Assembly: GCA_036874045.1 (NCBI GenBank)
Contig: CM072344.1
Coordinates: 10,512,501 to 10,576,500 of the forward strand
DNA: 64,000 bases
From: Cymodocea nodosa
Lineage: Eukaryota > Streptophyta > Magnoliopsida > Alismatales > Cymodoceaceae
Direction: 5' to 3'
Part shown: in pieces, positions 11,997 to 64,000 of the stretch
How positions within the stretch are numbered: the stretch's first letter is position 1
How the letters are laid out: each line of letters opens with the position of its first letter
Translations under genes and position numbers: made by a program
The notes under the pieces: model-generated
What the model saw: the letters and a program-made list of their open reading frames with translations, nothing else
Databases searched by the model: none
What the model was told of the DNA's origin: nothing

Positions 11997-13593
11997 TCTT
12001 TTAAATTAGATTTTGGCAAGTTATTTTGTCTATAGTGTATTGATCATAGAGTTATTTTTTAAGCCACCGAACAAAACAAGACAAATTGGATGGTTATGTC
12101 TCTCTCTCTTGGCTTTTCAAATGGTTATATCAGTAACTATCCAAAAAGTATTTATCTTCGGTGAGTTAAGTCTTTTTTGGTTTCGGATAGTTAAGGTTTT
12201 TTTTCTAGAGAGTTAACTATTTCTTTGATTTAATATATTTTCAGTTACTTTCTTCTAAAGGACACGTGTCAGTCTCTCATCGCTCGACTTAAGTGACTTT
12301 TCGGAAGGTTATGATGTAACTATCCTAAAACTCTTAAGAATTAGAGAGTTATCTTCAATAAGTATCCGAAAACAGTTTTAAGCTTCGGATGGTTGAGTTT
12401 TCTAGTATTTTCTAACTTAAGTGACTTTTCGGAAGGTTACTTGTGTAACTATCCGAAATGACCTAAGAATCGGAGAGTTATCTTTATAAGTATCTGAAAC
12501 ATGTCCACTCTATCGGATAGTTTATTTTTAATATTTTATAATGCTATTTTAGAAGGACACGTGTTTCAATTTTAATACATGACCTAAGTGGTCTTTCGGA
12601 ATGTTAGTTTTATCTATCCAAAATGTTTTTGAGTTTTGGTAGGTTATCTTTTTAAGTTTCCAATTTTCTCAAAGCCTCTAAAGATTTTATTTTTAAAGAA
12701 ACTGCAACTATTATTAATTAACTAATCTTTATGGCAAGATATCTTTTGATTGTAGATCTCAACTCTATTATGATTGAAGGTTGCCAGAAATGAATTCCTG
12801 CATAAGGCATTTGACCATTTCAGAATTCTTTCCACTTATGCAAATCTCGAAGGAAAAATAAAAGGATTTTGCAGAAAACTAAAAGAGACACATAGAATTT
12901 TTCAACACTTGAAAGGAGAAATTGTCTGCTCAGTAATTCTGCAAACACTTTGAAGATTTGTCTGCAACAAAGTCCAGAAAATCAACAACTGCAGATCAAT
13001 CAAGAATTCTCCTCAGAGCTTCTATGTCAACTCTTCATTGGAGTTGATCTAGTCTTGTGTGTTGTGTTCATTTTGAGTCTGTGACTCTTGGTTGTGTCGT
13101 GTTCATTTTGAGTCTGTGACTCTTGGTTTTAAACTATTGTCCTTTTGGGTTAAAACCTTAACTCACAAGGGTGTTGTGAGTATACCTTTACAAGATCGAG
13201 GCCTTGGTGAAGAGAGTGAAGTGTGATACTTCATTTGCTCAAGATTGGGGTCTTGAGTACACAAAGTTGGTGCTTTGTGTGAGGTTTTTGTTTAGCCTTT
13301 AAAAACATATGTAAGGTTGTTGCTTAGCCTGAAAAAGCAACTTGTTTAATGTTTGTGCTTAGCCTTAAAAGCACTTAGTGGAATTCTCGAGGTTGTGGCT
13401 TGAGGAGTGGACTACCTAGTTTGGGGAACCACTATAAATCTCTTTGTGTTCTTTACTTTTTGCACTACAAGTTTTTATTCTAAAATCAATTAATCAAGGT
13501 TCATTAGTGTCAACAGCTTCCGAATTTTAAAAGCAAAATAAACTTTATTAGGACACTATTCACCCCCCTTTAATGTGCCATTCGATCCTTTCA
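11997..13593 (+). repeat. 3' LTR of element B, right piece
   Basis: It resumes after the second TCTTT copy (11997-12001) and ends in CCTTTCA at 13593. It is rich in units of the type TCGGATAGTTA / GTAACTATCCGAAA (about 12120-12640) together with ACACGTGT boxes. The last part is CT-rich and carries the run CACCCCCCTTTA seen near the ends of the other Copia LTRs. Total LTR length without C is about 1.7 kb. Its right end fuses to Gypsy gag. Confidence 0.8.
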
Positions 13594-14746
13594 AAAATTC
13601 TATATTTTGAATTAGTTAATGAACCTTTATTTATTTGGTTGCCAAACTTTGAGGGAGATAGGTTTGAACTGAAATCTAATTATATTAGTCAATTGCCACA
13701 CTTTCATGGATTAGAAAGAGAAGATGCCTATTATTTCCTTAGAGAATTTAACAAAGTTTGTCAAATGATAAAAATGCTGAACATGAGTATTGATATTATT
13801 AAACTTAGATATATCCCTTTTGCTTTAAAAGACATAGTTAAGAGATGGTTATATACTCTATCGCCTGATTCAATTTCTACATGAACTGAATTTTGCTCTA
13901 TTTTTTTGGAAAAATATTATCCAACACATCAACAATTAAAAGAAAAAGGAAATATTAATGTGTAGCCAAAAATAGAGAGAATCATTCTAGAAATATTTTG
14001 AAAGATTTACTAACTCAATGTCCACATCATGTAATGAGTAAAGCACAATTAATAGGTATAATTTATGATGGCATAGATGTTTCAACAAAATCTTTATTAG
14101 AATCTACTTGTTAGAATGGATTTTTAAAACTGTGTAGTGAAGAAGCATGGGCATATTTAGAAAACTTTGCAAAAAGAACTACATAGTGGGAAAACTCAGC
14201 TGAAGCTATTACAAATAAAAGAATATTGCCAAGGGGAATGCATGAAATAGATTCAAGCACTATGCTTGAAGTTAAATTAACTGAATTAACAAAGAAAATA
14301 GAAGAGTTATCATTAAATCAAAAACTAGCAGAAAAGAATGCAAACATTAATGACTTAGATATTATTTATGCTAGAAACTAGAAAGATAACTTTGGAAATT
14401 CTTATAACCCTAATTGGAGAAATCACCCGAACTTATCTTGGAGAAATAACAATTTCCAAGGAGGAGAAAATATAAATGACAAAAATATAAGTTATGAAGC
14501 ATTAATTGAACAAGGATCTAGAATAGAGAAATTAGAAAAGATAATTCAACAATTAAACAATCGTCTAGATCTTATATTTGGAAATGGTACCATTCAAAAT
14601 CAAAATATGAATAGAAATATACCCTCTAGATAGAAGGAATCAATGGAAGTTAAACCTACGAGAGGATTGCCAATACAAGCAGTACCTAACCCTATCAACA
14701 GAAATGTTAATGAAATTGATATCTCCTATGGGAGGGAAGCTAAATG
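13594..14746 (+). pseudogene. gag: Gypsy gag-like ORF of element E, broken
   Basis: This is a retrotransposon gag domain (Ty3/Gypsy type). LPNFEGDRFELKSNYISQL, LPHFHGLEREDAYYFLREF and LRYIPFALKDIVKRWLYTL are followed by a CPHHVMSK-type segment and an Asn/Arg-rich tail (NPNWRNHPNLSWRNNNFQG). The copy in J lines up residue by residue. Several stops break it (near 13882, 13963, 14113, 14185, 14379 and 14632); most stand where J has a Gln or where Trp is expected. The N-terminal residues were removed by insertion of B. Confidence 0.85.
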
Positions 14747-14973
14747 AAGCAGTATAACTAAAGCAACTATGTATAATATAGTAGGTATAAAAAATATATA
14801 TATAAAAGAAAAAAAATATAAGTTTAATTATAGTTAGTAGTATCGTAGAGTTATTACTTTACTCAATGAACTTAGTCCCTTGAGTTATGACCTAACTCCA
14901 CGAGGGTAAGTAAGTAGCTATGTTAATTTTATCTTTGTTAAATTTTTGTTTATGTTATATAGAATCATAATAG
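14747..14973 (+). other. Spacer between gag and F-box in E
   Basis: This is short AT-rich DNA with the inverted pair CTCAATGAACTTAGTCCCTTGAG and CCTAACTCCACGAGG near 14860-14905. It corresponds to 54414-54587 of J, which has the same kind of AACTCAACG / CGTTGAGTT pair. No coding sequence is seen. Confidence 0.5.
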
Positions 14974-16113
14974 ATGGAATTGATGAAATTACCACTAGAT
15001 GCATTGAGGGAAGTATTGAGTAACTTGTCAACTAAAGATCTATGTAGATTGTGTTGTGTATCAAAGGAAAGTAAAGACTGTGTCATAGAAAAATATTTTC
15101 ATGGACTACAAGTTGCAAAAATGATTAAGATTAGAGATGGATTTTTATGGAAGTCATTTAATCGTAGTTCAATCAGTTATAAATATCTGAATATGGAAGA
15201 AAATGCTGGAATTCTACCCAATACATTAGAAGGAATAGATCATATGATGAGGATAGATAAAGGATTAATTATTTATAGAACTAAACCAAGGTATGCAATT
15301 CTGTTACCTGATATTTTGATTAGAAATCCTTTCACTAGAGAAGAATGAAATATAGGAAGGCCTAATAGATATGAAGTACCAACTAAAAATTGTGGGTCAA
15401 CTTTAACATTTTCTGATAAAAATTTGACCATTCCTGAAAAATTATATTACTGGAGAGCAACTGGAAATGGGGATGAAGATTTATGTTTAAGTGTGTATAA
15501 TTTTCTAAATAGATCTTGGACTGAAAATACTATGATATATCTAGGACAGAAAGCATTAATTAACAACATACATGTCATACTTTATGGATATATATATCTA
15601 GTCATAGATATATCAGTTGCATTTAGATCTGATTCATACATAGTAAGCATAGACAATTATGATGATGACTTTATAGAAATATTGCCTATACTAACTGATA
15701 TAGCTAAACCACCATCTTCAGAATATGATAAAATTCAATGAGGAATGTGGTATAATGAATATGATGATCCTACTTTATGTCTGATAAGATGGTGGGATGA
15801 ATTGATGAAATTTCAAATATGGATTATAAAAGACCTAAATGAGTGGAAGTGGGAAGAGGAATATATTGAAATAGATGTAGAAATAGAAATAGCTACATTA
15901 TCTTGGAATAGAAGAGGATCCCTTTCTACATTTGAATTCATTAATGGAAATACGCTTATATTTAGTATTGATAACATACTGCAAGTTTACGAGTTAAAAA
16001 GAAAAGCGGACTACATTAAAATAGAATTAATAGCAAGAAGAATTATGCCTAAAATATTTGCTTGGACTGACACATTTATTCCATTTGTTACTACTTTTCA
16101 ATTATGTTCTTAA
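14974..16113 (+). pseudogene. F-box protein pseudogene in Gypsy element E
   Basis: This is a second copy of the F-box gene of J. The F-box lies at residues 3-45 (LPLDALREVLSNLSTKDLC, then RLCCVSKES), followed by a region like an F-box-associated domain (GLIIYRTKPRYA, LIRNPFTREE, LYYWRATGNGDEDLCLSVYN, LIRWWDELMKFQIWI). Two point changes give stops: TGA at about 15346 where J has Trp, and TGA at about 15739 where J has Ile. The frame is otherwise kept to the TAA at 16111. An in-frame TAG directly precedes the ATG, which supports this start. Confidence 0.85.
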
Positions 16114-16445
16114 ACTATGATTTTGTACTTTTAATGTTGTGTGTATTCTGCATTTATTTTTAGAAAAAAAAAACAAAATATAAATCCAATTTGTTGGTAT
16201 CTGTTCTAGGAAACCAACTAGCTTGCTTGTGAGCCACCAAAGGCATAGGAGCTTGGGTTCCATACAAGACATTGATTTAACAAGTTATGTTTTGTTATTT
16301 TGTTATATATTCTGCTTTTATGTGTGAATGACAAGTTTTTTAGAATAAAAAATCAAGAGATATTGAAGGAGATACAAAAGAACAAGGTATGTAATTGATT
16401 ACTTATCCTGAATTTACATTTAAACTCAATTCGTGGAGTTATTCA
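16114..16445 (+). other. 3' non-coding part of Gypsy E
   Basis: The stretch at about 16187-16275 (GTGAGCCACCAAAGGCATAG, CTTGGGTTCC) is conserved with complement 53041-53140 of J, directly after the F-box gene. The rest is AT-rich. The element is interrupted at 16446 by the LTR of F, and the last five bases (ATTCA) are the presumed target copy. Confidence 0.6.
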
Positions 16446-29957: not shown

Positions 29958-31548
29958 CGTCGCAAGTTGTAACACCAACAAGTAGGAAATATTTTCTTGA
30001 CAAAGTTTACAAATAACCTAAGTGCTCGTGTAATAAGTGTTTAAATAGGGTTTTTAGGCACATAACTCAACGTGAAGAGAAGTCGAGTTTAGAAATTAAA
30101 TAAATACTGAATAAAGTTTATTCAATCAAGGTACCCGAAATATTCAAGTATAACTCGTTGAGTTAACTAACCTAATGAGTAAAATGCTGTCTAGAGGTAG
30201 TTTTACATGTTACCTTATCTAACATAACATCTAGTTAGTACACTTAAAACAATTTTCGAATGCTTCCAACTGAAACGTTCCGAAAACAACATACAAGCTA
30301 AACTTAACATTATCTTGAGAACATTGTAAACTATTTGAACTTTTTGTCCTTTGAATCTAAAATAGTTTATTTGTCTTTTTAAATTATTTCATCAAGATTT
30401 TAAGAGGACATTAATTCAGATTAACTAAGATTTGTATTCTAAATTATATTAATCTGTTTTTGACATTGTTAATCCTCCCCCTACAAATATACTTCAAATA
30501 TATTCAATCAAAATACAAAATATACTTGTAGTGACAATAGATGTTAAGTATAACTATACTTTTAAATTTTCTTTTCAGAAACTTCCATTATCCTGACATC
30601 ATCAAAAATGATTTCCAGAATCAATTCCTACTATATATGAATCAAAACACAACATTGAACTCAACTCGATTAATTCAAGGAGAATAAAAGAATGTATCTC
30701 AAATAAACGTTTTCAAAAGTACTAATGTTGATTCAATAAATCAGTAGTCATATTGGTATAAACTATATGCGATTCAAAGATATCTGTAATTAATGAAACA
30801 ACTTTTTCTTTTCAAAACAGTAAATATTGACAATTTTCTTTCAAAGTTAGTTTGAAAAGCTTGAATCATACAAGAGCTTTCTAATGTACCCGTGTAATGA
30901 GCTTTTAGTCAACAATCCCAAATCTGATCAAGACCTTAGGTTGCCAGATTTAAAGAATCCTTTTTTAGGACAACAATCCTTACATACCTATCTGCTAAAG
31001 TACAAAAGGCTCGTGATCAAACTGATCTATAAACTCTCAAAGATTTTCACTTTGTAAGCACTTTTCATTTTAAGTAAAGTATATATGTATTCCATTAATA
31101 TAGATGTAATAAAACACAAATCTCATACAATTTTTACTTCTATGATAGTACTGAGAATATGAATCAGTTTCAATAAGCTTATACTTTTGATTAACAATTT
31201 AAGATGAGTTACATATAACTTATTCTACAAGTTTAATCAATTAAGTCAAATTTATGCATGATCATATGCATTTTCCTTGATTCAAAGAAAACATTTAATC
31301 AAAATTTCAGAATGTCAGAAGTATTTAATGTTTTTCATTTACACTTCCACTTCAAAATTTTAAAAACCATTAAAATTGATAAACTACTTTAAAATCAATA
31401 AGATACTACTATGATTTTATAGTAAATACATAGTATCTTAGGCAGCAGTTTAGATATTACTTTAGGTATTTTATAATAAGTATATAATATCTATGAGGTG
31501 AACAATATCATCAATAATATTTATCTTTTTATGTAGAGTTTAAGCATT
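29958..31548 (-). other. Spacer of H between pol and the extra ORF
   Basis: It is homologous to the spacer of C and no coding sequence is seen. TATTTAAAC at complement 30039-30047 lies 90 bp before the ORF start, and TAGGGGGAGGA at about complement 30472-30482. The block at about 30843-31040 is the one also found in Gypsy J near 52000-52200. Confidence 0.68.
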
Positions 31549-47290: not shown

Positions 47291-49251
47291 ATGTCAGAAC
47301 GTGGAAAAGGACGTGGTAGAATGACAAAAGTGCAAAAAAGAGAGCTGGAATTACAGAAAATACAGAGTGAAATCCATGACATCTACTCCAAGTACACTTT
47401 TTCAAACGAAGTACTACACGAAATCAGAAAAGTTGTTCAAGATGAGAAAAATTTCTATTGGAAATTTATTCGCAATTATGCTGAAACACAATTTAGACTA
47501 AAATAGATTGAACTTTCTGCATTGCATTTATGGAAAAGAAATTTACAACCAAACCTTGCGGTTGTAAGTTCTGGACATGTACAAGAGACATTGGTACAGT
47601 CTATCACTTACTACAGAAAGAAGTGGGGACCAATGATCGAAAATGCAAACAAGAAATTACAATCCTTGTATTCCCAACATTATTTTCCCCCAACTGTTTT
47701 AGATGACATTAAATAGTGTATAGATGAACAGAAAACTGCCATTAGCAAAATGGGCCTTTGAAGTGAAGGACAAAGAGTTTATCAACTTAAAATGGCAGAG
47801 GTTGAGAGCTTAAAACTCTATATTCCATTATTACAACCTAGGCATCATGGTGAAGGACCATCAAGACCCCAGGTGCCTTTAACAAGAGAAATTAAGACAA
47901 TTTTAGAATCTCTTGAACAACCTAAAACACTGCAGACATATAGTCAAAAAAGAAAAAGACAATTGAATATTTTGGACTAACTACAGGTGTACAAGGAATA
48001 TTGCAGCAAAAAGAAGAATCAGTGAAAAATAGAAAACTATGCTCCATTGCAGAAGCTAGATAGACATTTTTGTTAGGAATCCCAGCAGATGTGACAAATA
48101 TTGGCTTACAAGCATATACTCTAAGGTATTGTGTCACATTAGTGCATAATGTATCTTTTCATATAATGGAAAGTTTTTCACACAATGCTGCAAGCACACA
48201 TTCTTTTCCTACGGAAAGAGAGCATGTAGGAAATTTTGATGATACATATACAGATGATATCCAATTTGATGATATTTTTGATGACATAGACACTAAGTCT
48301 ATGAATTTTGAAGATATTTCATCTGAAGAGGAATGTACAGATATTCTTCCTCTTACTATATCTCGAATAGAGACTTTTGAATTTTGGTACAGTTGCTTAT
48401 ACTACAGGTTATATATATGGTTATGTCTGTTACAGTATATAGTATACTTGTTGATAAATGTATATAACCAACAAAATACACAGTTACAAATAGAATATGA
48501 TACTACCAATGTCTCACATATACAAATTTCAAAAATACAGGATGATTCTATTCCACAGATAGATATAGAACATTCTTTCATACAGAGACAGTTGTATAGA
48601 TCAAATATAGACATACATGTTGCTGATATACAAATTATTACAGAGACTATTGCTAGTGAAATGTTTCCAAAAGAACACAGAAGAATTTCAGCAGATTATT
48701 GATACAACAATACCAGATACTTCAAACATTTATAATAGTTTTAATGGCAATTCCAACAGTTTTGAAAGATTTGAAAAGTTAGATACTGCTGATAATTTTG
48801 AAACAAGTCCCATATCAGAACATCATGATAGGAAAATACCTAATCCTGAACAGAGTTTAGATGAAAATACACTATTATGGTTTAGAAATACTTCCTGTTA
48901 TGACAAATTTCAGACATATAAAACTTTTACAGTTTTATATTCAAGACGAGTTAAGTTTAAAGGGATGGCACACATACAAGAACTGTTTGAATTTCAAGGC
49001 TTGTTGACTCTACTTCCACAACAACCAGGCCATCTTGTTATACCCGAACTTATCATCTATTTTTACTCAAACTTAACAGTAGAAGACGATATTCCTATTT
49101 CCAATATACAAGAAAATGACATATATTTAACTCCCAATTTACTTTATCAAGTACTTGGTCTAAAAAATGAAGGAGTTAACTTATCAGAAAGAAAACAGGT
49201 TTATCATTTGGGATGGACATTCAAACTTTAGCCAACGATCCAATTGCCAAT
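47291..49251 (+). pseudogene. Extra 3' ORF of element I, Transposase_32-like, cut by J
   Basis: It begins MSERGKGRGRMTKVQKRELE, a basic start like those of C and H, followed by helical charged segments. The Transposase_32-like domain starts at about 48850 (YDKFQTYKTFTVLYSRRVKF, ELFEFQGLLTLLPQQPGH, PELIIYFYSNLTVED, LLYQVLGLKNEGVNLSE). Stops interrupt the frame at about 47504, 47714 and 47759, and frames change near 47980-48070 and 48620-48700. A further shift lies near 49205: the family continuation is readable in another frame as IQTLANDPIAN, up to the J insertion. It continues at 63618. Confidence 0.75.
49247..49251. repeat. Target-site duplication of element J, left copy
   Basis: CCAAT precedes the TG of J, and CCAAC (63618-63622) follows its other end. 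Four of five bases agree, and the coding homology of I resumes across the pair, so the difference is probably a later mutation. Confidence 0.75.
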
Positions 49252-51508
49252 TGTTTGCATTTTCCTAGCACTACACTAGAAAAACTTGCATTTGTTACTT
49301 CTATTTTTACTTAGTTAATTTATCTTTATGCCAATTCTTTCTTTTAGAGGTAAACAAACAACCTTTAATACAATTTAGATATTAATTCCAATTTGTACTT
49401 GAACTGCAAGTGCACAGTGTCTATTGTAATAGTGTGCAAGTACAGGTCGATCTCACAGGGAATTGCTAACGAATTTCAGAACTGTTCGTTTGTTAACAAT
49501 CAAATTTATATATTCAATAAGCTCTTCGTTGACTTATAGTTAACTTAACGGACTAAGTTCTTTGAGTTATGGCTAACTCAATGGACTAACCTCATGGACT
49601 TAAGTTAACTCCACGAGCCTGTCTTTTCTTTTTAATACTGCTATTTACAGAGGAATTCGGCCAGCCATTGAGCGATTCCACAGATTGTAAATAACATCAA
49701 TTAAGCTCTTTAATGTTAGTTAACATTGGATTTATCATTAAGCAGTACTAACATTCAGATAATTCAAACAGTAACCATTAAAATCTTTAAGTCTTTTGAA
49801 CGAACCAATTTCAATAAACTGTAAAACTAAAATAAACATAAAACAATCACAACACTGATAAAGATAACATTAATCACGATACAACACAAACAATACAACA
49901 CTCAAATACAACATACAAACATAGATAAATTGTTTTTTGTATTTTTGTTTTAATATGAACATGGAAATGGGCGAAAGGTGAAATGTAAAGTAATCTCACT
50001 TAACAGTAAATACTTCCGACACTACTTGCAACGTGCTTACACCAATGAAAATTAAAACATTTACAATTCTATCTCCTCTCCCTATAGAATCGCGAGTCCA
50101 GAATTGCAAGATGATCTCCTCTTCAGCATACAGGCATCAACCCGAAGCCAAGGCTAAAAGCTTTACAATCTCCTGAAATATGAGTCGGCGCTTGGTGAAA
50201 ATGGCTTCCCTTCCCGCGACGCGATCACTCCTCATAGTAGTTGTCAAGCACTGTGTTTGGCTCGGAATCGACCTGACATCAGGCAATTGTCCTCACAGAC
50301 CTCCGATGGTTGTGGATTATGGTGGTGATGATGACGGTTGTGGTGATGATGGTTGTTGGTGTGGAACTTTGGAAAATTACGATGCTTATCCTCCTCTGCA
50401 CACACTGCCCACCCATCGATCACACCCTTCTTTTTTTCTTCTTTTCTTTTATATTTCTTCAATAGTAACTGCTTCTGCTTGAATGGTCGGTTGGATTTCC
50501 TTCATTCGTATCAATGACGATGATTTCTTTCCCTACACGATACGTACAAATGTGGTTTTTCTCTTCCAACTATGTGTTCCTGCAACCGCTATAATGGCAT
50601 TTTAGAAAATAGATTTAACTATAAAATACGTGCAATAAAGAAATAAGTCGCTAACATAACGCGTTACCTTAGTGTGTATTCATGTAACTTAACGTGTACA
50701 GTTATGCTAACTTAACGAGTTAAGTATGTGCATCTCACATGATATACTAAAGCATTTAAATTCAACACATGCATAAATCTAACTATTCGATGCTCAGGTG
50801 CATTTTGGATACTTATAAACTTAACTATCCGATGCTCAGATGCATTTCGGATAGTTACAAATAACTCATCGATATATAACTTAAGTAAATCTACCAGATC
50901 TCGACACGAGTTAGCAGCAGTTTAATCATAAAATAACATTTCAGAGAGTTACAAAGCTAACTATCCAATGCTTAGATGCATTTCGGATAGTTATAGATAA
51001 CTCACTGAAAATCCACTTAAGTCACTTTCCTAAAACATGACACGTGTCCACAGCTATTTTATAAATAAAAAGAGATTTCGAAGAGTTACAGGAATAACTA
51101 TCTAATGCCCAGCTACAATTTCGGAGAGTTATAAATAAGTCATCGAAAGTTCACTTAAGTCATTCATTATGGTTTTGACACGTGTACTTCAGGAAATAAT
51201 AAAATATTCTCTCAAAACATAACTATTCGGCAATTTAAACATAATTGTCCGAATATGTTCAATTTTTTAAACATAACTGCCCGAAATATTAGAAATTGGG
51301 ATACTTAAGAATTTCACAGCTTGCAACTTACCGACAGTTCAGAAATGTACTAAATTAACATTAATTCCCCCAAATTAAGTAGATTATTCAATTAAAGCAT
51401 ATAATAGTGAAATTATAACATAATGGCTTAATTCTCATAAGATAAGCTAAATATTATGCAATTAACCATCATTTAACCATTAATAATATGCACTTTTCAT
51501 TCTAAACA
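49252..51508 (-). repeat. 3' LTR of element J
   Basis: The LTR is 2257 bp, TGTTTAGAATG to CGCAAACA-type ends, and matches 61374-63617. It contains arrays of TCGGATAGTTA / AACTATCCGATGC units with ACACGTGT boxes (about 50740-51180), and paired AACTCAACG / CGTTGAGTT units near the other end (about 49525-49620). The open frame at 50180-50482 is rich in His and low-complexity codons and looks fortuitous. Confidence 0.93.
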
Positions 51509-51522
51509 CTTCCCCCATACCT
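51509..51522 (-). other. Polypurine tract next to the J 3' LTR
   Basis: AGGTATGGGGGAAG on the minus strand abuts the TG of the LTR. It is the expected plus-strand primer. Confidence 0.85.
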
Positions 51523-52800
51523 AAATTTTGCTAGTCCCTTAGCAAACTAAGATCTAATTAATTGGTCTTTCAAAAAGTGCTAGAATTAATTCTTCCCCTT
51601 TGTTTTTCTTCTGTTTAGCATAAAAATATATTCTGTATGTTTCAGTAATCAACCTGCAAATATACTTAGAATATATGCAAATTACATACAAAGTATATCA
51701 TCATCACATAAGTGTTAATTATATTATCGTTTGTTCTTCTTTTCATCATCTGTCATCCTGAATTTTTCAATAAGATTTCTAGAAGAAGTTTCAACAACAT
51801 ACAAATCAAAGTACAATCCAATTCAATCTGATTAAGACAAGTAGAATAAAAATTGTATCTCTATTAAACAACTTCAAAAGTCAATTCCAGATTCATATTT
51901 CAGCAATTCAAGATAACAGAAAATATACTAGATTCATAAGATATCTGTATTTCACAAAACACTTGTATCTTTTCAGAACAGTATATGTTTTTTTTTTTTT
52001 CTTTAAAAGTTAATTTGACAAGCTTGAATCATACAAGAGCTTTCTAATGTACCCATGTAACGAGCTTTCAATCAACAATCCTAGATCTGATTAGGATCTT
52101 AGGTTGCCAGATTTCAAGAGTCCTTGTTCAGGTCAACAATCCTTACATACCTATCTACTCAAGTACAAAAGGCTCGTGATCAAACAAGTCAATAAACTCT
52201 CAAAATTTTCCTTTTTTTTTTTTCTTTTTAATCAAACTACAAACACAAAACAAAATATTAATCACATACTATATATGTACGTATTTCATTAATATAGATG
52301 TAATAAAACACCAATCTCATATAGTCCTGCTTCTATCAATTACTGAAAATATGAATCCATAACAATAAGCTTATACTTTTTATGTAGTTTACTAAGATCT
52401 ACACATAAATCATTCTACAAATTCAATCAGTCAAATTAAATATATCTCTAATCATATGTGTTTCATTTAATCTAGAATTCACATCTCAGCTCATTCAGGA
52501 CTTCAAATAATTTACTGATTTTTCATTAAGCATTCTAATTTCATTTTAAAATCGTGAAACTATTAAACTCATGAAATTCAGAAAAAGCATAAGATACTAT
52601 ATCTAGATTTGCATAACTAGTAAATTCAATAGCATCTTATATAGCCTTCTAAATATAACATTCAAGCAGTTTATAAATATTTACAGTCTTATTTATCGGA
52701 TAGTTACAACAAGTTTATAAAAATTTTCAATTTCCTTAAAACTTTGCAGTACTATTTTAATTTCATTAATTAACAAACTTACATAGCTGTTACTTTAATT
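51523..52800 (-). other. Spacer of J shared with Copia C and H
   Basis: No coding sequence is seen. The block at about 52000-52210 matches, in the same sense, the pol-to-ORF spacers of C (6740-6960) and H (30843-31060): TCTGGCAACCTAAG..TCC, TCTAGGATTGTTGATTGAAA and TCTTGTATGATTCAAGCTT words occur in order. It lies between the two polypurine tracts, so it looks like a piece acquired by the Gypsy element, or given by it to Copia. Confidence 0.75.
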
Positions 52801-53258: not shown

Positions 53259-54413
53259 TTAAGAACATGATTGAAAAGTAGGAACAAATGGAATAAATGT
53301 ATCAGTCCAAGCAAACTTTTTAGGCATAGTTCTTTTTGCTATTAATTCTATTTTAATGTAGTTCTTGTTCCTTGTTAATTTGTAAACATGTAATATATTA
53401 TAAATTCCAAATACAAGTGTATTATCATTAATGATATGCAATGCAGAAAGGGATCCTTTTTGGTTCCAAGGTAATGTAGCAGTTTCTATTTCTACATCTA
53501 TTTCAATATACTCCTCTTCCCACTTCCATTCATTTATGTCTTCCATAATCCATATTTGAAATTTCATCAGTTCATCCCACCATCTTATCAGATATAACTT
53601 AAGATCATCTTCTTCATTATACCACATTCCTATTTGAATTTTATTAAATTCTGCAGATGGTGGTTTAGCTATTTCACTCGGTATAGGTAAAATTTCTATA
53701 TATTCATCATAACTGTCTATGCTCATTATATATAAATTAGATCTAAATGCTATTGATGTATCTGTGACTAGATATATATATCCATCAAGTATGACATGTG
53801 TTTGGTTAATTAATGATTTCTGTCCTAGATATATAATAATATTTGCATTCCAAGATCTATTCAGAAAGTTATACACACTTAAGCGTAAATCTTCACCCAA
53901 ATTTCCTTTAGGTCTCCAATAATATAATTTTTCAGGAATTGCAAAATTTTTATCAGAAAATATTAAAGCTGACCCATAATTTACAATTGGTGCTTCAAAT
54001 CTATTAGGTCTTCCTATATTCCATTCTTCTCCTGTTATAGGATTTCTTATCAAAATATTAGGTAATAATAAACTTGCATACCTTGGTCTCGTACTGTATA
54101 TGATTAATCCTTCATCTATCCCCATAATATGATTTATTCCTTCTAATGTATTGGGTGGAATTCTAGTAGTTTCTTCTATAGCTAGATATTCATGGGTATT
54201 TGAACTACGATTAAATGACCTCCATATGAATCCATCTCTAATCTTAGTCATTTTTGTAGCTTGTAGTCCTTGAAAATATTTTTCTTCAATACAGTTTTTA
54301 ATTTCCTTTGATACACAACACAACCTGCATAGATTTTTAGCTGATAAGTTACTTAGTACTTCCCTTAGTGCATCCAATGGTAATTGCATCAATTCCATTT
54401 GTCGATTCTGCAA
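53259..54413 (-). CDS. F-box protein carried by Gypsy element J
   Basis: An uninterrupted 384-codon ORF. The family start is probably the sixth codon (MELMQLP, ATG at 54398), because E has a stop directly before the matching ATG. The F-box is at about residues 8-50 (LPLDALREVLSNLSAKNLC, RLCCVSKEIKNC). Such domains bind SKP1 and link targets to an SCF ubiquitin ligase. The rest resembles an F-box-associated domain: GINHIMGIDEGLIIYSTRPR, LIRNPITGEEWNIGRP, LYYWRPKGNLGEDLRLSVYN, LKLYLIRWWDELMKFQIWI, ending FAWTDTFIPFV. There is no transmembrane segment. It lies about 175 bp after the gag-like ORF, in the same sense. It is the only long coding region here without damage, although its neighbours are broken. 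The substrate is unknown. Confidence 0.85.
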   Translation of the reverse strand: MQNRQMELMQLPLDALREVLSNLSAKNLCRLCCVSKEIKNCIEEKYFQGLQATKMTKIRDGFIWRSFNRSSNTHEYLAIEETTRIPPNTLEGINHIMGIDEGLIIYSTRPRYASLLLPNILIRNPITGEEWNIGRPNRFEAPIVNYGSALIFSDKNFAIPEKLYYWRPKGNLGEDLRLSVYNFLNRSWNANIIIYLGQKSLINQTHVILDGYIYLVTDTSIAFRSNLYIMSIDSYDEYIEILPIPSEIAKPPSAEFNKIQIGMWYNEEDDLKLYLIRWWDELMKFQIWIMEDINEWKWEEEYIEIDVEIETATLPWNQKGSLSALHIINDNTLVFGIYNILHVYKLTRNKNYIKIELIAKRTMPKKFAWTDTFIPFVPTFQSCS

Positions 54414-54587
54414 AACACAAACAAAAATTTAGCAGAGACAAAAATTAACATACTATTGCACACCCTCGTGGAGTTAAGGCATAACTCAACGGACTAAGTT
54501 CGTTGAGTTAAAAATTAACTCTACGATACTATTAACTAAAAATAGAAAACATATATACATACAGATAGTTGCTTTAGATATGCTGCT
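54414..54587 (-). other. Spacer between gag-like ORF and F-box gene in J
   Basis: It contains inverted units AACTCAACGGAC and GTTCGTTGAGTT around 54480-54510, as in the LTRs and in the same place in E. No coding sequence is seen. Confidence 0.5.
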
Positions 54588-55812
54588 TCATTCAGCTACC
54601 CTCCTAGAAGAGGTATCAATTTCATGAACAGTTCTATTGATAGGACTAGGTATAGCTTGTATTGGCAATCCTCTAGTAGGTCTAAGTTCCATTGGTTCCT
54701 TCTGTCTAAGTGGTATATTTCTATTCTGATTTTGAATTGCAACATTACCAAATATAAAATCTAGACGATTGTTTAATTGTTGGATTATCTTTTCTAATTT
54801 CTCTATTCTAGATCCTTGTTCAATTAATTCTTCATAACTTATGTTCTTCTCATTTATATTTTCTCCTCCTTGGAAATTATTGTTTCTCCAAGGTAAATTC
54901 GGGTGATTTCTCCAATTAGGATGATAAGAATTTCCCAAGTTATCTCTTTGGTTTCTAGCATAAATAATATCTAAGTCATTTATGTTTGCATTCTTTTCTG
55001 CTAACTTTTGATTTAATTATAACTCTTCTATTTTCTTTGTTAATTCATTTAATTTCACCTCAAGCATAGTATTTGAATCTATTTCATGCATTCCTCTTGG
55101 CAATATTCTTTTATCTGTAATAACTTCAGCCGAGTTTTCCCACTGTGCAGTTCTTTTTGCAAAGTTTTCTAAATATGCCCACGCTTCTTCACTACATAAC
55201 TTTAAAAATCCATTTTGACAAGTACATTCTAATAAAGATTTTGTTGAAACATCTATGCCTTCATAAATTATACCTATTAATTGTGCTTTACTCATTGCAT
55301 GATGTGGACATTGAGTCAATAAATCTTTAAATCTTTCAAAATATTTCCAAAATGATTCACCCTATTTTTGGCTACACATTAATATTTCTTTCTTCTTTTT
55401 AATCGTTTGATGTGTTGGATAATATTTTTCTAGAAAAATAGAGTAAAATTCAGTCCCTGTAGAAATTGAATCAGGCAATAGAGTATATAACCATCTCTTA
55501 GCTGTCTTTTAAAGAAAAAGGAATATATCTAAGTTTAATAGCATCTATACTCATGTTCGGCATTTTCATCATTTGACAAACTTCGTTAAATTCTCTAAGG
55601 AAATAATAGGCATCCTGTCTTTCTAATCCATGAAAATGTGGCAATTGACTAATATAATTGGATTTCAGTTCAAACCTATCTCCCTCAAAATTTGGCAATC
55701 GAATACATGAATGTCCATCAACTAATTCAGGATACAGAATCTCTCCTAATGGTTTTCCTACTAGAGCAGCCATCTCTATGTTCTCTTTTAAAGAAAGGTT
55801 AGATACACCCAA
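54588..55812 (-). pseudogene. gag: Gypsy gag-like ORF of element J
   Basis: A Ty3/Gypsy gag domain: MAALVGKPLGEILYPELV, IRLPNFEGDRFELKSNYI, HFHGLERQDAYYFLREFNE, LRYIPFSLKD, FLEKYYPTHQ, then TQCPHHAMSKAQLIGIIYEG and an Asn/Arg-rich basic tail (WRNHPNLPWRNNNFQGGEN). It lacks a zinc knuckle; one is found instead in the ORF at 60938-61315. About two bases are missing at 55500 compared with E, and TAG or TAA codons stand near 55365 and 55016. Its place downstream of integrase, next to the F-box gene, is shared with E. Confidence 0.85.
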
Positions 55813-56875
55813 AGAATTTCGTTAAAGTTAAGTTCAGAAAATTTTTCAATACTCCTCTACAATGAAAATTCCTAGGTAGGTGTTCTTACTAATCGTTTAG
55901 TGCTTAGAGAACGAGTCCATGTGCTCATAAATAAATAGTAGAAGATTAATTACATACCAATCTGAAGCTTTCCATTCAATAAATATTTGTTGTCAAATGA
56001 AGTTGAATTAGTTGCTTCTCCTTCTAGTTCCTCCAACGCATTCTCCTCTCTTTTAAAAGTGCTAGTAACTCGTAAATAACATTCTGTTTTATATATATAC
56101 TGCAATCGCTAAAGTGTATAAATCTCGTTGCAAGAACGTGGCTTGCAACATGCATCGTGGTTCCTATTTTTATGGGTACGTATACCACTACTAATTTCAA
56201 ATTTTGGTAACCGCTAAACCGACGAAGTTTCATTCGTGGTTAAAATAATAACCATTCTGCTTAATCCACGAACTAACCTTGTTGAGTTATAGAAAACTCA
56301 ATAGAACACAGTCGGTTACTGTTGCTAACTCCACGGACTAACTTCGTTGAGTTACAAATAACTCAACAGAGTGATCTTATATTATATTACTGACCTCGTG
56401 GAGTTACGTTTAACTCAACGGACTTACTTCGTTGAGTTAACACTTGACAACTTCTAAGTTTTACTCTCGTAAGTTCTTCTCTATTTTTTTTCTTTTTCAT
56501 TCTGCTAACTGAAATAAAGTTAAATCTATGTCATTAATGCATCATTTTGATTAAAATTCATTTAAATCTGAACCTTATATAAAGATTTAACTTGCATGTT
56601 ATTTTATGTTATGCAAAATTTACATTTTACCTTACAACATGCAGAAATTTTTAAGCAGTTATCCTATCATTCAGTAAATTGTAAATCTGTTACATATTCT
56701 TTCATAATATTTCACAAAATATGTATAACAGTCAATACATTCCATTCATTTTCACTTCCAAAACACGTATGAAAATTGCATCTGAAAAATTTACATTCAT
56801 TAATATGAATCAATTACATTACAAGTACATCATACAATTTCATACAATTTTACACAAGTAGACGAACAATACAAT
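55813..56875 (-). other. Non-coding region between extra ORF and gag-like ORF in J
   Basis: AT-rich, with a cluster of CCACGGACTAAC, TTCGTTGAGTTA and CTCGTGGAGTTA units at about 56265-56460 like those in the LTRs. This may be a promoter or leader for the downstream gag/F-box unit. A 69-codon open frame (56024-56233) has no recognisable domain. Confidence 0.5.
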
Positions 56876-59103
56876 TTAATCTTTATGCCTAAGTTCATCT
56901 ACTTCCTTCTGGAGTTTTTCTAATTGAAGCTCTAATTGATTAATCCTTTCTACTGCTCTTGTAATTCCTCCAAAAGGTACAGCTAGTTCTGCAGCTACAA
57001 AATTTCTATATTCTTTCACTAAATGGTTCTAGATCTGATCCTTTTTGATGTCCATTTTGTGAAATCAATACAGTCCACCATCAGCAATGGAATCAAATCT
57101 CCATAAAATAATTTCTTCTTCACTATTTTCAGCTTGGAGATAAAAACTACAGACCAATTTATTTGGATCTTATTTATAACTGCATATATGGCCCATTTGA
57201 CAAATTGACTTAATTCTATGTCATGGCCCTGTCGTTGATAGACATTCTTAATCAAAATGTTAGCTACCATGTGTGCTTTACCATTTAAATGCTTCAATTT
57301 GTTTAATAATGGCACACCAGGATTGATAGCTAAACAATCCTTAATTTCTTGTTTAGTCCATTCAACTGCAGTTGTATCTTCCAAAATTTTTGGTCCTTCA
57401 TTCTTTAAACCAAAAATGTTGTGGAGAAGCTCTGGTGTTATGTGTACATCAGCTTCCTCCATGTTTGAAATTAATCCTCTTTCTCCTTCTCTTAAATTTG
57501 CATAAAAACAAGGCACTAAATTCTCATATACTGCATGCCCTCTTTCTTGAGAAATGAATTGCAGTAGACCTTGGAATTCAAATAAATCTTTGATTTCTTA
57601 CATTCCATCCCAATTTACTGGTCTACTGTAAATAATGTCGTAATCCCTTATTTCTTGGTATTTGGTATAAGCTTCCTGACTACAAAAATGTACTTCATTC
57701 AAAATCGTTGTTTTAGTCGGGTCAAGAAGGTGACTTTGTTGCTCTAGAGGGGTTTGTACTTGTTCTTCCTCTAGCATAGGCTGCATTTGAATATTTTCTA
57801 CAGATTCCTAAATTTCTATTTCTATTTGTGGTGGTGAGCCGGCAGAACTCTCCACTCTATCTTGAATTCTCTCCATAATTTGCTGAAGAGTTTCTTGCTC
57901 TTCAATGGAATCTGTAAAATTATTTTTGTCCAAATGGCTTCTTTCAGCCTCTTCATTTTGTACTCTTTCTTTTTCCTCCTAACTACCAATCTGTTCTGTT
58001 ACTGTTCTTTTTGATTCTGTAACAGATTGGGATGGAGTCACGGGCAATTCAGTTTTTGCCCTAATTTCTGTTTCTTATTGTACAGGCTGTAGACTAATTT
58101 CAACCTGATTCTTTTCTTTTCTTTGCTCCTACTACTGCAGCTCCTCTTGTTCCTCCTCAGAATCGGATAGCAGGTTAATAAAAATCTACTCCACAGGCCC
58201 TGTAAAGTTGGTACTTCAGATTTAATTTCTTCATATTCAGGCACTTTTTCTTTTCCTTTCTTTTTTCTGATTAGTTGTGCATGTTCTTCCTCTTCATCTT
58301 CTGAAATTAAATCTACAAAAGTAGGCTCTGCAGGCCTTCGAGCCACAAGTACTAGCTCTTCCTGTTTAACTTTTTTTTATTACTGCTGGTCTCGTAGGAC
58401 CAGCTTCATCTCCTTTTGCAGCAGGTTTGGCAGTAGCTTCTTAATGCTGTTCCACTTTGATTTTATATTGAACTTTCAACTTTTCTACAACCCTCTTTTT
58501 GTAAAGTGCATCAAGCACTAGGTGTGCATTAGCCACTGCCAAATCTTCTAATTCTCCTTGGTTTTTTCTAACTTGAACCAGTTCTTCAAATTCTCTTATT
58601 TCTTCTTCGTTTGGAGGCCCCATAACTACCAACCTTTCTAATGGTTTAGGAAGTGGATTTGAAGGTCCAGGGTGCTGCTCCTTAGGAACAGGTCTTTCAG
58701 TAGTCGGCTCCTCTTGTCCTTCAGTTGCCTCTTCTTCATTTTCTTTCCTTTCTTGCTCCCAGATCACTCATTTAGCTCGTCTACAGATTCGTCTTTTGAA
58801 CTAGAGCCGAGACTTACGTTGGATTAATTCTAGGGCTACTTCATTGTTTGGCCGTATCTTTCTTTCTTTACTTACTACAATTTCAATTGCCACTCTAATT
58901 CGTGTCTCCATTATCTATGGTATCTGTATTTCTAACTCAACCAAAATTTTTCTCAAGTTAAAGAGTTCTGATTCTACCTTTTGTAGCTCTTTCTCTCTTG
59001 TTGTATTTTTGATCTTCTGCCTCGTGTGCCATTCTTCAGATTCCTTTAGAAACTGTGCGGTGTCCACTACCTCTTCCTAGAATTTAGGCTTCATCTTCCT
59101 CAT
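56876..59103 (-). pseudogene. Extra ORF of Gypsy J, Transposase_32-like
   Basis: From ATG 59103 (MRKMKPKF, then TAG) a 2.2-kb region encodes charged coiled-coil segments (REKELQKVESELFNLRKIL), a Glu/Pro-rich low-complexity part (NEEEATEGQEEPTTERPVPK) and the Transposase_32-like domain at about 57020-57790. The domain shows YDIIYSRPVNWDGM, LVPCFYANLREGERG, LLHNIFGLKNEGPK, HMVANILIKNVYQRQGHDIE and KKLFYGDLIPLLMVDC. It ends in a leucine-rich helix (INQLELQLEKLQKEVDELRH). Several stops and frame changes break it. Architecture and domain match the extra ORFs of Copia B, C, H and I. Confidence 0.75.
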
Positions 59104-59671: not shown

Positions 59672-60733
59672 CTAAGTAAAGCTTGAGTAGTCTTCTACTC
59701 TGACTTCTTCTATAATTCTAAAGGAGCTTTTTGTAGTTTTCAGAATAGGTTTTAGTCTTTGTCCATTTACTTTAAATATATTCTGATTTTTAGGATTTTC
59801 AATTTCAATAGCTCTATAAGGATAAATATTTCGAACTATGTAAGGTCCTGCCCATCTAGATTTTAGTTTTCCTAAATGGTTATGGAGTCTAGCCATATAA
59901 AGATATACTTCTTGTCCTATTTCAAAGCTTTTAGGAATAATTTTTCTATCATGCCAAAATTGAATTTTTTCTTTTTCTCTTATAGTCTTTGAATAAGCTT
60001 CATTTTTAAATTCTTCTAATTCAATTAATTGCATTTTTCTATTTTCAAAAGCTTGATTTAAATTAGTGTTCAGAGTTTTTAATGCCCAATAAGCTTTATG
60101 TTCTATTTCAACTAGTAAATGACAACTTTTTCCATATACTAGCCTAAAAGGTGACATACCTAAGCTCGTTTTATAAGCAGTTCTATAAGCCCAAAGTGCA
60201 TCTATCAATCTATTAGCCCAATCTCTTCTAGTAGGATTTACTACTTTTTCTAAGATTAATTTAATTTATTTGTTTGCACTTTCTACTTGTCCACTTGTTT
60301 GCGGATGATATGATGTTGCAATTTTGTGGTTTACTCCATATTTCTTCATTAAGGCTTCAAAACTTCTATTACAGAAATGAGTTCCTCTATCACTGATAAT
60401 AGCTTTAGGTGTTCCAAATCTAGCAAATATATTTGTTCTTATAAATTAAATTACCACTTTATTATCATTAGTTTTTGTAGGAATAGCTTCTATCTATTTA
60501 GATACGTAATCCACCCCCAAAAATATGTAATTAAATTGATTAGACATAGGAAATGGACCCATAAAATCTATTCCCCATCTTAATGTTATACATACATCTT
60601 CCAGATTTTCATTACTCCCATGATGTTTTTGTATATCATTTTCGTGATTATGATCTTCAATTGTTTTTAGTTTTAAAGTGCATTCTTTAAATACTCTTGC
60701 ATTAGTATTTTCTGTTTGCTGTATATTTTGCAA
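59672..60733 (-). pseudogene. pol: Integrase of Gypsy J
   Basis: A Ty3/Gypsy integrase core and C-terminus. The catalytic Asp in WGIDFMGPFPMSNQF, the second Asp in IISDRGTHFCNRS and the Glu in SYHPQTSGQVESANK are all visible. They are followed by [40 protein letters not shown] and a GPY/F-type module ([14 protein letters not shown]). There is no chromodomain, as in Athila/Tat types. Stops stand where Trp or Gln is usual (after DYVSK, KVVI and SANK). The 178-codon C-terminal part is open. The usual N-terminal zinc domain, reverse transcriptase and RNase H are missing just upstream. Confidence 0.88.
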
Positions 60734-60937: not shown

Positions 60938-61315
60938 TTAGTTGACTTCTTGTTGTTGGCATACAATGTATTCCAGTTTGTCTAGATTTTTCTCTATACT
61001 ATGATCCAGTTTGTCATACCTATCCCAAACTTCATTGTCTCTCAACATATTACACATTCTATACTGACCATCAGTTGGGTAAACTATAGGATTCTCATAC
61101 TCGGCTCTATTATATTGAGGATAATTCATTTGTTGTTCATGGGATCTAACCATCTGCAAACGTCTTAGTTTCAAACAGTCAGAAATGTCGTGTCCTTCAG
61201 AATTGCAGAATTCACATATGCTAATTACAGGTTTCAGAAATCTTTGAGCATAAGCATATGCCATATTCTCAATTACAGAAGAAAACACACAACTCTGGCT
61301 ATTAAAACGAAACAA
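60938..61315 (-). pseudogene. Zinc-knuckle ORF at the 5' end of J
   Basis: A 125-codon frame close to the primer site, with one CX2CX4HX4C knuckle (CEFCNSEGHDISDC) as at the end of Gypsy gag. After it comes a Tyr/Asn-rich stretch and a helix (YDKLDHSIEKNLDKLEYIVC). It is probably the residual C-terminus of the original gag. Its capsid part may correspond to the gag-like ORF now found near the 3' end. The start codon is not certain. Confidence 0.6.
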
Positions 61316-61348: not shown

Positions 61349-61366
61349 TCCCTGGCAACGGCGCCA
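61349..61366 (-). other. Primer-binding site of element J
   Basis: TGGCGCCGTTGCCAGGG on the minus strand lies seven bases inside the LTR. It is the common Athila/Tat-type Gypsy primer site, and I believe it is complementary to Asp-tRNA. Confidence 0.88.
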
Positions 61367-61373
61367 TAAAACT

Positions 61374-63617
61374 TGTTTGCGTTTTCCCAGCACTACACTA
61401 GAAAAACTTGGATTTGTTACTTCTATTTTTACTTAGTTAATTTATCTTTATGACAATTCTTTCTTTTAAAAGTAAACAAACAACCTTTAATACAATTTAG
61501 ATATTAATTCCAATTTGTACTTTAACTACAAGTGCATAGTGTCTTTTGTATCAGTGTGCAAGTACAGGTCGATCCCATAGGGAATTGCTGATGAATTTGA
61601 GAACTGTTCATTTGTTAACAATCAAATTTATATATTCAATAAGCTCTTCGTTGACATATAGTTAACTCAACACACTAAGTTCGTTGAGTTATGGCTAACT
61701 CAACGGACTAACCTTGTGGACTTAAGTTAACTCCACAAGCTTGTCTTTTCTTTTTAATACTGCTATTTACAGAGGAATTCGGCCAACCATTGGGCGATTC
61801 CACAAATTGTAAATAACATCAATTAAGCTCTTTAATGTTAATTAACATTGGATTTATCATTAAGCAATACTAACATTCAGATAATTCAAATAGTAACCAT
61901 TAAAATCTTTAAGTCTTTTGAACGAACCAATTTCAGTAAACTGTAAAACTAAAATAAACATAAAACAATCACAACACTGACAAAGATAACATTAATCACG
62001 ATACAACACAAACAATACAACACTCAAATACAACATACAAACATAGATAAATTGTTTTTGATATTTTTTTTTTAATATAAACATGGAAATGGGCGAAAGG
62101 TGAAATGTAAAGTAATCTCACTTGACAGTAAATACTTCCGACACTACTTGCAACGCGATTACACCACTGAAAATTAAACCACTTACAATTTTGTCTCCTC
62201 TCCCTATAGAATCGCGAGTCTAGAATTGCAAGATGATCTCTTCTTCAACATACAGGCATCAACCCGCAGCCAAGGCTAAAAGCTTTACAATCTCCTGAAA
62301 TATGAGTCGGCGCTTGGTGAAAATGACTTCCCTTCCCACGATGTGATCACTCCTCAGAGTGGTTGTCAGGCACTGTGTTTGGCTTGGAATCGACCCGACA
62401 TCAGGCAAGTATCCTTACAGACCTCCGATTGTTGTGGATTATGGTGTTCATGATGATGGTTGTTGGTGTGGAACTTCAGAGAATTGCGATGCTCATCCTC
62501 CTCTACACACATTGTCCGCCCATCGATCACACCCTTTTTTTTTTCTTCTTTTCTTTTATATTTCTTCAATAGTAACTGCTTCTGCTTGAATGGTCAGTTG
62601 GATTTCCTTCATTCGTATCAACGGCAATGATTTCTTTCCCTACGTGATACGTGCAAACGTGGTTTTTCTCTTCCAACTATCTGTTCGTACAACCTCTACA
62701 GTGGCATTTTAGAAAATAGATTTAACTATAAAATACGTGCAATAAAGAAATAAGCCGCTAACATAACGCGTTACCTTAGTGTGTATTCATGTAACTCAAC
62801 GCGTACAGTTATGCTAACTTAACGAGTTAAACATGTGCATCTCACATGATATACTAAGGCATTTAAATTCAACACGTGCATAAATCTAACTATCCGATGC
62901 TCAGGTGCATTTCGGATACTTATAAACTTAACTGTCTGATGCTTAGATGCATATCGGATAGCTACAAATAACTCACCGATATATAACTTAAGTAAATCTA
63001 CCAGATCTCAACATGTGTCAGCAGCAGTTTAATCATAAAATAACATTTCGGAGAGTTACAAAGCTAACTATCCGATGCTCAAATGCATTTCGGATAGTTA
63101 TAGATAACTCATCGAAAATCTACTTAAGTCACTTTCCCAGAACATGACACGTGTCCACAGCTATTTTATAAATAAAAAGAGATTTTAGAGAGTTATAGGG
63201 ATAACTATCTGATGCCCAACTGCAATTTCGGATAGTTATAGATAACTCATCGAAAGTTCACTTAAGTCATTCATTATGGTTTTGACACGTGTACTTCAGG
63301 AAATAATAAAATATTCTCTTAAAACATAACTATTCAGCAATTTAAACATAACTGTCCGAATATGTTCGGTATGTTAAACATAACTGTCCAAAATATCAGA
63401 AAATTCGAATACTTAAGAATTTCACAACCTGCAACTTACCAATAGTTCAGAAATGTACTAAATTAACATTAATTCTCCCAAATTAAGCAGATTCTATAAT
63501 TAAAGCATATAACAGTGCAATTATAACATAATGGCTTAATTCTCATATGATAAGCTAAATATTATGCAATTAACCATCATTTAACCGTTAATAATATGCA
63601 CTTTTTCATTCTAAACA
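61374..63617 (-). repeat. 5' LTR of element J
   Basis: The LTR is 2244 bp and matches 49252-51508 base by base with scattered differences. It has the same motif arrays (TCGGATAGTTA type at about 62890-63280, AACTCAACG type at about 61640-61740). The open frames at 62359-62589 are shadows of low-complexity DNA. Confidence 0.93.
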
Positions 63618-63737
63618 CCAACAAACCATTGAGGTTACTAAATGACTTAAATGGCTAAGCATGTTTTATTGCAAAAATACTGCATGCTTCATTGTTTCAG
63701 AGGTTTGAAACTGCTATTAACATTATGTATGTTTGAA
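63618..63737 (+). pseudogene. Element I extra ORF, continuation after J
   Basis: Directly after J the frame reads NKPLRLLNDLNG, a stop, then ACFIAKILHASLFQRF. This lines up with the FIANILHANLFQR part of the Transposase_32-like domain in C and H. The first five bases (CCAAC) are the right target copy of J. The homology ends about 63705-63737, where Gypsy LTR sequence begins. Confidence 0.8.
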
Positions 63738-64000
63738 ACTGCTATTTACAGAGGAATTCGACCAACCATTGGGCGATTCCACAGATTGTAAATAACATCA
63801 ATTAAGCTCTTTAATGTTAGTTAACATTGGATTTATCATTAAGCAGTACTAACATTCAGATAATTCAAACAGTAACCATTAAAATCTTTAAGTCTTTTGA
63901 ACGAACCAATTTCAGTAAATTGTAAAACTAAAACAACATAAAACAATCACAACATTGACAAAGATAACATTAATCACGATACAACACAAACAATACAACA
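63738..64000 (-). repeat. Element K: further Gypsy LTR fragment
   Basis: It matches the J LTR from its position of about 385 onwards (compare 49637-49900 and 61757-62020) and continues past the window edge. It does not begin at an LTR terminus: it joins element I at ACTGCTATTTACAG with short shared sequence. It is therefore the product of a deletion or recombination and not a simple insertion. Confidence 0.85.

Follow-up and report, generated by a model that had tools for sequence, protein, structure and literature searches.

The window analysed here is the whole 64,000-nucleotide stretch of Cymodocea nodosa DNA. It contains a Ty3/gypsy LTR retrotransposon, denoted J, which carries an F-box gene on the minus strand of the window. 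As the initial annotation had it, the gene runs in the sense strand of the element and lies between the gag region and the 3' LTR. A second copy, denoted K, had been overlooked although it is inside the same window. The features of both copies are as follows (a slash marks a donor or acceptor boundary).

61374..63617, minus strand: 5' LTR of J (TG...CA), flanked by GTTGG at 63618-63622
61349..61366, minus strand: primer-binding site TGGCGCCGTTGCCAGGGA, which we take to be of the tRNA-Asp type
60938..61264, minus strand: 5' frame of 108 aa plus stop, with CEFCNSEGHDISDC, presumably a CCHC zinc knuckle motif
60576..60577, minus strand: pol gap, about 3.05 kb absent from J (protease, RT, RNase H and part of integrase), with a non-GT-AG junction
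59672..60208, minus strand: C-terminal remnant of integrase, aligning with the rve-bearing ORF L039:5545-6228
57019..57516, minus strand: extra ORF, weakly Transposase_32-like ('putative plant transposon protein')
54408..55957, minus strand: intron-like segment of 1550 nt that holds the gag region; donor ATTG/GTATGT, acceptor TTTTGCAG/AATCGACAA-ATG
54588..55812, minus strand: gag capsid region, downstream of pol, in three ORFs (55498-55812, 55017-55319, 54588-54938)
53259..54398, minus strand: F-box gene, 379 aa, ATG at 54398, stop at 53261-53259
51509..51519, minus strand: polypurine tract TATGGGGGAAG, preceding the 3' LTR
49252..51508, minus strand: 3' LTR of J (TG...CA), flanked by ATTGG at 49247-49251
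13588..16415, plus strand: copy K, a diverged gag and F-box segment
14974-16113, plus strand: F-box of copy K, interrupted by two nonsense codons but not by a net frameshift

The F-box frame had been described as an ORF of 384 codons. The frame is indeed open, but its first codon (54413) is TTG, and the natural ATG start gives a protein of 379 aa. The F-box is as clear as had been claimed (PF00646, E=1.3e-9, 38 bits against a cut-off of 20.5), and the same Pfam family was matched by 9/9 aligned F-box copies. The proposed F-box-associated domain is less certain: FBA_1 does match in the C-terminal half (E=0.0087) and in 7/9 aligned copies, but even the best of these matches (E 0.0039) is below the Pfam cut-off. 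Among solved structures (PDB) there was no match to the F-box protein up to E 1, nor to a 9-row F-box profile up to E 10. A chance ORF is ruled out, as the expectation of a 380-codon open frame at 28% GC is near 5e-11 for the window.

As the initial annotation stated, J's gag, integrase and extra ORF are all broken. Pfam gave no match for J's own gag pieces, extra-ORF piece or integrase remnant. The corresponding assignments come from homologous ORFs in other copies (designated L), namely PF03732 Retrotrans_gag in L031:8538-8966 (E=1.1e-9), PF00665 in L039:5545-6228 (E=5.2e-9) and, for the extra ORF, PF20167 in L039:2911-3588 (E=6.4e-4, 20.1 bits, under the cut-off of 45). The 5' zinc-knuckle frame, for whose homologue L031:417-935 Pfam had no match, is the sole gag-like part found upstream of pol.

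Ten copies were retrieved, each with 16.9 kb of context. At the equivalent of window position 60577 four of them (L031, L039, L045 and L049) hold 3049-3055 bases absent from J, L037 holds 2282 bases and L035 a shorter part. In L039 the ORFs of this segment have matches to RT, RNase H and integrase, plus a weak one to a protease. Since other copies keep a segment with these ORFs, J has lost most of pol; splicing as the cause of the loss is ruled out by its non-GT-AG ends. The target-site duplication of J is imperfect (GTTGG/ATTGG, 4/5 bases matching), and an exact 5 bp duplication is present in L045 and in L043.

Gene order and copy number of the family

The order is read in L031, where the LTR end is followed by the zinc-knuckle ORF, homologues of the protease, RT and integrase ORFs, the Transposase_32-like ORF, the gag capsid and then the F-box. 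The ORFs of L039 run protease-RT-RNase H-integrase (the protease match is below cut-off, and J itself is without most of pol), and no second RNase H, a domain that the Athila clade lacks, was found among the scanned L039 ORFs. Gag sequence lies downstream of integrase in 8/10 contexts, and none was found upstream in the same element in those eight at E<=1e-5. Within the contexts, the F-box element of L041 retains only the second half of gag, and L043 has a further gag, more distantly related (36-44% identity), in the sequence next to it. As for the other two contexts, L045's own element is without gag and L047 shows no sign of gag or integrase. The usual Ty3/gypsy placement of gag upstream of pol is not found in these contexts, where only the zinc knuckle lies upstream. 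For the family we read the order as 5' LTR, zinc knuckle and protease, then RT, RNase H and integrase, followed by the Transposase_32-like ORF, the gag capsid, the F-box and the 3' LTR.

A split, permuted gag, with the capsid behind pol and the CCHC zinc knuckle at the 5' end, is seen in this high-copy family in L037, L039, L031, L049 and J. The family departs from the gag-pol order that is described for plant elements in parts of a review (PMC7264820). A phrase search of the open-licence literature returned no paper on a gag-after-pol order, a result that does not prove that none exists. In L044 a related gag is accompanied by an F-box/LRR-like frame; this frame had no Pfam match, and we rejected it, reading it as translated tandem DNA repeats.

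A genome search with the F-box protein gave 7028 candidates in a loose first look, and among the best candidates, which alone were scored, there are at least 108 F-box copies. Nearly all of these 108 align over positions 1-380, and their identity, J itself excepted, is 88-91%. By our count, 36/108 have no internal stop; because the ranking follows protein similarity, intact copies are over-represented in it. To sample copies blind to the frame, we searched with the noncoding 3' flank (best 40 scored of 2928) and retrieved five copies. An F-box is present in 5/5, two of them with frameshifts and the three others with nonsense codons. The copy into which L045 is inserted has a frameshift in its F-box. 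Together with K, the frame-blind copies include no intact one (0/7).

A gag-anchored search (best 40 scored of 4315, being the best matches to J) produced 39 matches besides J, 26 of which were assessed. The F-box, or its 3' flank at J-like spacing, was found in 24/26. For 12 matches the F-box or 3' flank was already in the earlier lists, at a spacing of 1297-1346 nt (1344 in J), and among the next 14 matches by rank, 42-base probes revealed the F-box in 12. It was absent at the probe site in the remaining 2/26 assessed copies. In the gag-bearing L068 (C5:5047152-5047193), J's 3' noncoding sequence 52632-52673 sits at the expected F-box start, while the probe of the other matches nothing in J. 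The initial annotation had allowed that most family members might lack the gene; the search for J-family copies shows the opposite.

The gene is also old. The F-box gene is older than the split between J and K, whose synonymous distance is about 0.30. This does not support the suggestion of a recent capture, and a recent single capture is rejected in view of copy K, the copy number and the synonymous distance.

Evidence for selection on the F-box frame

We compared observed changes with rates expected from the mutation spectrum of the noncoding spacer and flank in 36 copies, with K kept apart. The spectrum came only from noncoding columns in which 20 or more copies were represented and the majority reached 60%, counting changes in one or two copies only. 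Codon columns readable in fewer than 15 copies were omitted, as were gapped codons.

F-box variants present in three or more copies comprise 52 synonymous and 71 nonsynonymous changes, a spectrum-corrected omega of 0.40; with variants treated as independent events, ignoring recurrent mutation and relatedness, the synonymous excess has binomial p=9e-7, and 3 stops were observed against 18 expected (Poisson p=1.7e-5). For gag variants of the same kind in the same copies omega is 0.46 (p=0.0014), which does not differ from the F-box value (p=0.56). Singletons gave 0.71 for the F-box (25 stops, synonymous excess p=0.0087) and 0.97 for gag (p=0.44), and the difference between shared and singleton variants is seen in both genes (p=0.011 for the F-box, p=0.013 for gag). 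In +1-frame controls the singletons gave 1.36 (F-box) and 1.17 (gag). The controls for shared variants were 0.63 and 0.67, respectively; since these are also below 1, the contrast that speaks for constraint is moderate. Within the gene, the first 46 codons (from 54401, the F-box motif) have an omega of 0.25-0.28 and the remainder 0.49-0.67.

Comparison of K with the family gave spectrum-corrected values of 0.53 for the F-box, 0.42 for gag and 0.95 for the +1 frame of the F-box; the uncorrected F-box dN/dS is 0.40. Among the frame-blind copies and J, with K left out, omega is 0.76, and K against these gives 0.59. The 30 main loci were picked by F-box protein similarity, which lowered the apparent omega. 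An initial pairwise dN/dS of 0.39, obtained from this biased sample without spectrum correction and without two of the 30 loci (L025 and L029, whose F-box is 3 nt shorter), carries no weight in our conclusions. We read the sequence comparisons as pointing to a real but moderate constraint on the F-box, with near-neutral decay after insertion. The initial annotation had considered a dN/dS near 1 among copies as evidence against its proposal. This ratio is roughly observed, but only for recent private changes and not for shared variants.

The two LTRs of J are 92.4% identical over 2261 aligned positions in a self-comparison (K2P 0.073), and a grass substitution rate of 1.3e-8 per site and year puts its age at about 2.8 million years. 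The frame is thus not open because J is young, as had been offered as an alternative. On the tip branch of J (0.038) 3.1 nonsense changes are expected, so that the chance of remaining stop-free is about 4% (P(0)=0.04). Against the frame-blind copies J has an omega of 0.86, which is near neutral. Because about three stops are expected, omega is 0.86 and all seven frame-blind copies are broken, we call the frame of J a lucky survivor. The implication of the initial annotation that the frame is intact since this particular copy is kept finds no support here. Judged from these comparisons, J is an old copy without most of pol, and its F-box frame appears to be open by luck. The idea of a cargo kept by selection is supported, with a moderate signal, for the family (shared-variant omega and 24/26 linkage) but not for J's own copy.

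A probable intron footprint and a proposed role of the F-box protein

J retains both donor and acceptor, and the intron-like segment between them is unspliced. In the element of L045 (locus L025), which has LTRs of 95.0% identity and the exact 5-bp duplication, this segment is absent to the base, from CAGACTG/GTATGT to TTTTACAG/AATCGACAAATGG; in the L037 reference the missing segment measures 1546 nt. The same GT-AG junction occurs in L017, L025 (context L045) and L027, that is, in 3/30 loci. The missing segment spans gag, and its end lies 9 nt before the F-box ATG. The three loci belong to separate clades (support 0.94-0.97), each beside copies that retain the segment, in a tree built from the F-box and 3' flank only, so that the argument for independent losses assumes no recombination. 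The upstream Transposase_32-like region is kept in two of the three and absent from the third. Identical GT-AG loss in three separate clades suggests the footprint of a spliced F-box mRNA, and the simplest reading is that the precise loss of the gag segment probably arose by reverse transcription of spliced RNA, at least three times. Two other gaps were ruled out as introns by their non-GT-AG ends: one of 423 bp in L031 and one of 2.3 kb common to L043 and L045 (window equivalent 59270-56925). The latter is a deletion that removes the Transposase_32-like ORF and is a subfamily mark.

Our main reading, to which we assign a probability of about 0.7, is that the F-box gene has long been an accessory gene, coding for an SCF adaptor, of a high-copy, putatively Athila-like Ty3/gypsy family, that it is kept by selection, and that its mRNA is spliced. 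With the gag-spanning intron removed, the splice junction would lie 9 nt ahead of the F-box ATG. Because splicing both removes gag and places the ATG near the junction, two RNAs could serve two proteins: gag would be made from unspliced RNA and the F-box protein from the spliced form, much like a retroviral accessory or env mRNA. The F-box ATG is far from the 5' LTR, and ribosome access would need a further upstream splice or an internal promoter. Selection on element lineages would have retained the protein, chiefly its F-box motif. F-box proteins connect SKP1-Cullin with a substrate. Presence in the assessed copies, constraint, the intron footprint and the gene order are shown by the sequences; beyond these, we predict that the protein would be translated from the spliced RNA, assemble into an SCF complex by docking on SKP1/Cullin and mark a protein for degradation. 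The distribution of constraint, tightest in the SKP1-docking motif and laxer in the part presumed to bind the substrate, fits an SCF adaptor with a changing target-binding face.

The degraded protein would most plausibly be a host factor that limits the element, and the target that we favour, tentatively, is perhaps a host restriction or silencing factor. The full combination, namely a dedicated, alternatively spliced ubiquitin-ligase adaptor that removes such a factor, in a permuted genome with capsid and adaptor behind pol and the capsid gene inside the alternatively spliced intron ahead of the adaptor, is possible but rather doubtful as a whole.

The main rival to a host-factor target is a role on the element's own proteins, such as turnover of gag or integrase or the timing of particle assembly. 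It is compatible with the accessory-gene reading, from which it differs in the target, and we regard it as rather unlikely. The F-box co-occurs with gag and follows the alternatively spliced segment that holds gag; links of this kind are known from retroviral accessory genes. However, 3/30 loci have lost gag and keep the F-box, which speaks weakly against a role directed at gag only.

We consider it improbable that the gene is a passive passenger, i.e. a host F-box gene captured in the distant past and since replicated with the element without benefiting it. The decay of every frame-blind copy, the omega of 0.76 among these copies and J, and the +1-frame control of 0.63 for shared variants would all suit a passenger. 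Yet stops and nonsynonymous changes are depleted among shared variants as strongly as in gag, the constraint peaks in the F-box motif, and the splice footprint recurs at the F-box start.

Two further alternatives have very little to recommend them. Some F-box copies might now serve the plant, with selection acting there, and the 36 stop-free copies among those scored agree with this; but J evolves nearly neutrally, luck alone gives its open frame a chance of about 4%, and the 11 stop-free loci among the 30 retrieved scatter over several parts of the tree. It is equally far-fetched to explain the intron-less copies by ordinary deletions, which are frequent in the family, as the GT...AG end points of the three copies, which lie in separate clades, agree to the base, and the other large deletions listed have, on inspection, no GT-AG ends.

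Relation to known systems and other related sequences in the window

To our knowledge, many extra genes of plant LTR retrotransposons have no known role, and transposon counter-measures against plant silencing are a largely open field. The accessory-gene reading offers an extra gene of a recognisable biochemical type (an SCF adaptor) with at least 108 scored copies and a constrained docking motif, and the splice footprint suggests how its mRNA is made. Whether transposons degrade host defence proteins would thereby become a direct question of binding and proteomics. If the adaptor does remove a host restriction or silencing factor, it would be a transposon counterpart of polerovirus P0 or of retroviral accessory genes. 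A downstream gag would also bear on the control of the gag:pol ratio in Ty3/gypsy elements.

The position of the F-box resembles that of the additional ORFs (aORFs) known from plant Ty3/gypsy elements, such as Athila env-like ORFs, Grande gene23 and Retand ORF4, which likewise lie between the coding region and the 3' LTR. According to parts of PMC7264820 and PMC11963269, aORFs are present in most copies of their elements. The F-box follows the pattern of a conserved aORF, with presence in most copies (24/26 assessed) and conservation like that of gag (omega 0.40 versus 0.46), but the family here encodes an F-box protein. The word 'f-box' occurs 0 times in the available text of these two papers and 0 times in the main text of PMC3726574. 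Searches of the open-licence literature for a retrotransposon F-box, by phrase or combined terms, found no such case and returned related papers only, a result that holds for that literature alone. As a kind, extra ORFs of plant Gypsy elements are already known (PMC7264820, in part), and so far as searched, the F-box as extra gene and the unusual gene order are new.

Phalaenopsis Gypsy elements carry an ORF for AlkB, an m6A RNA demethylase, which is suggested to matter in host surveillance of transposons (sections of PMC9289625). There too a host-type gene, in that case for an enzyme, is fixed in one plant Gypsy lineage, but the gene and the mechanism are different. Across 121 angiosperm genomes that survey reports 15 non-canonical domains; section 12 names some but not all of the 15, none of those named being an F-box, and the word occurs 0 times in the paper as available. 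Among plant parasites, polerovirus P0 sets a precedent: this protein has an F-box-like motif, interacts with SKP1 and targets AGO1, and autophagy contributes to AGO1 degradation (PMC6593998, in part). AGO1 is P0's target, and the F-box here is known from sequence alone. Partial splicing has a parallel in Ogre (Tat clade) Ty3/gypsy RNA, as described in portions of PMC6317226. The Ogre intron lies between gag-protease and RT-RH-INT, whereas the intron here spans gag and joins upstream RNA to the F-box.

Several other stretches of the window are related to J. An LTR fragment at 63732-64000, 96% identical to part of J's LTRs, starts 115 bp past J's 5' LTR and continues beyond the edge of the window. 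Another LTR remnant, an end piece of 491 bp (4764-5254), is 94-96% identical to J's LTRs and, by eye, abuts Copia RT-like sequence. Three ORF stretches outside J (3134-3631, 9351-9851 and 27999-28424) have 31-34% identity to J's Transposase_32-like ORF, and a fourth, short match to it is at 49061-49189. Finally, J's 3' noncoding region (51653-52676) recurs at 6503-7289 and 30480-31476 with 71-74% identity, marking either a related family or a modular 3' region.
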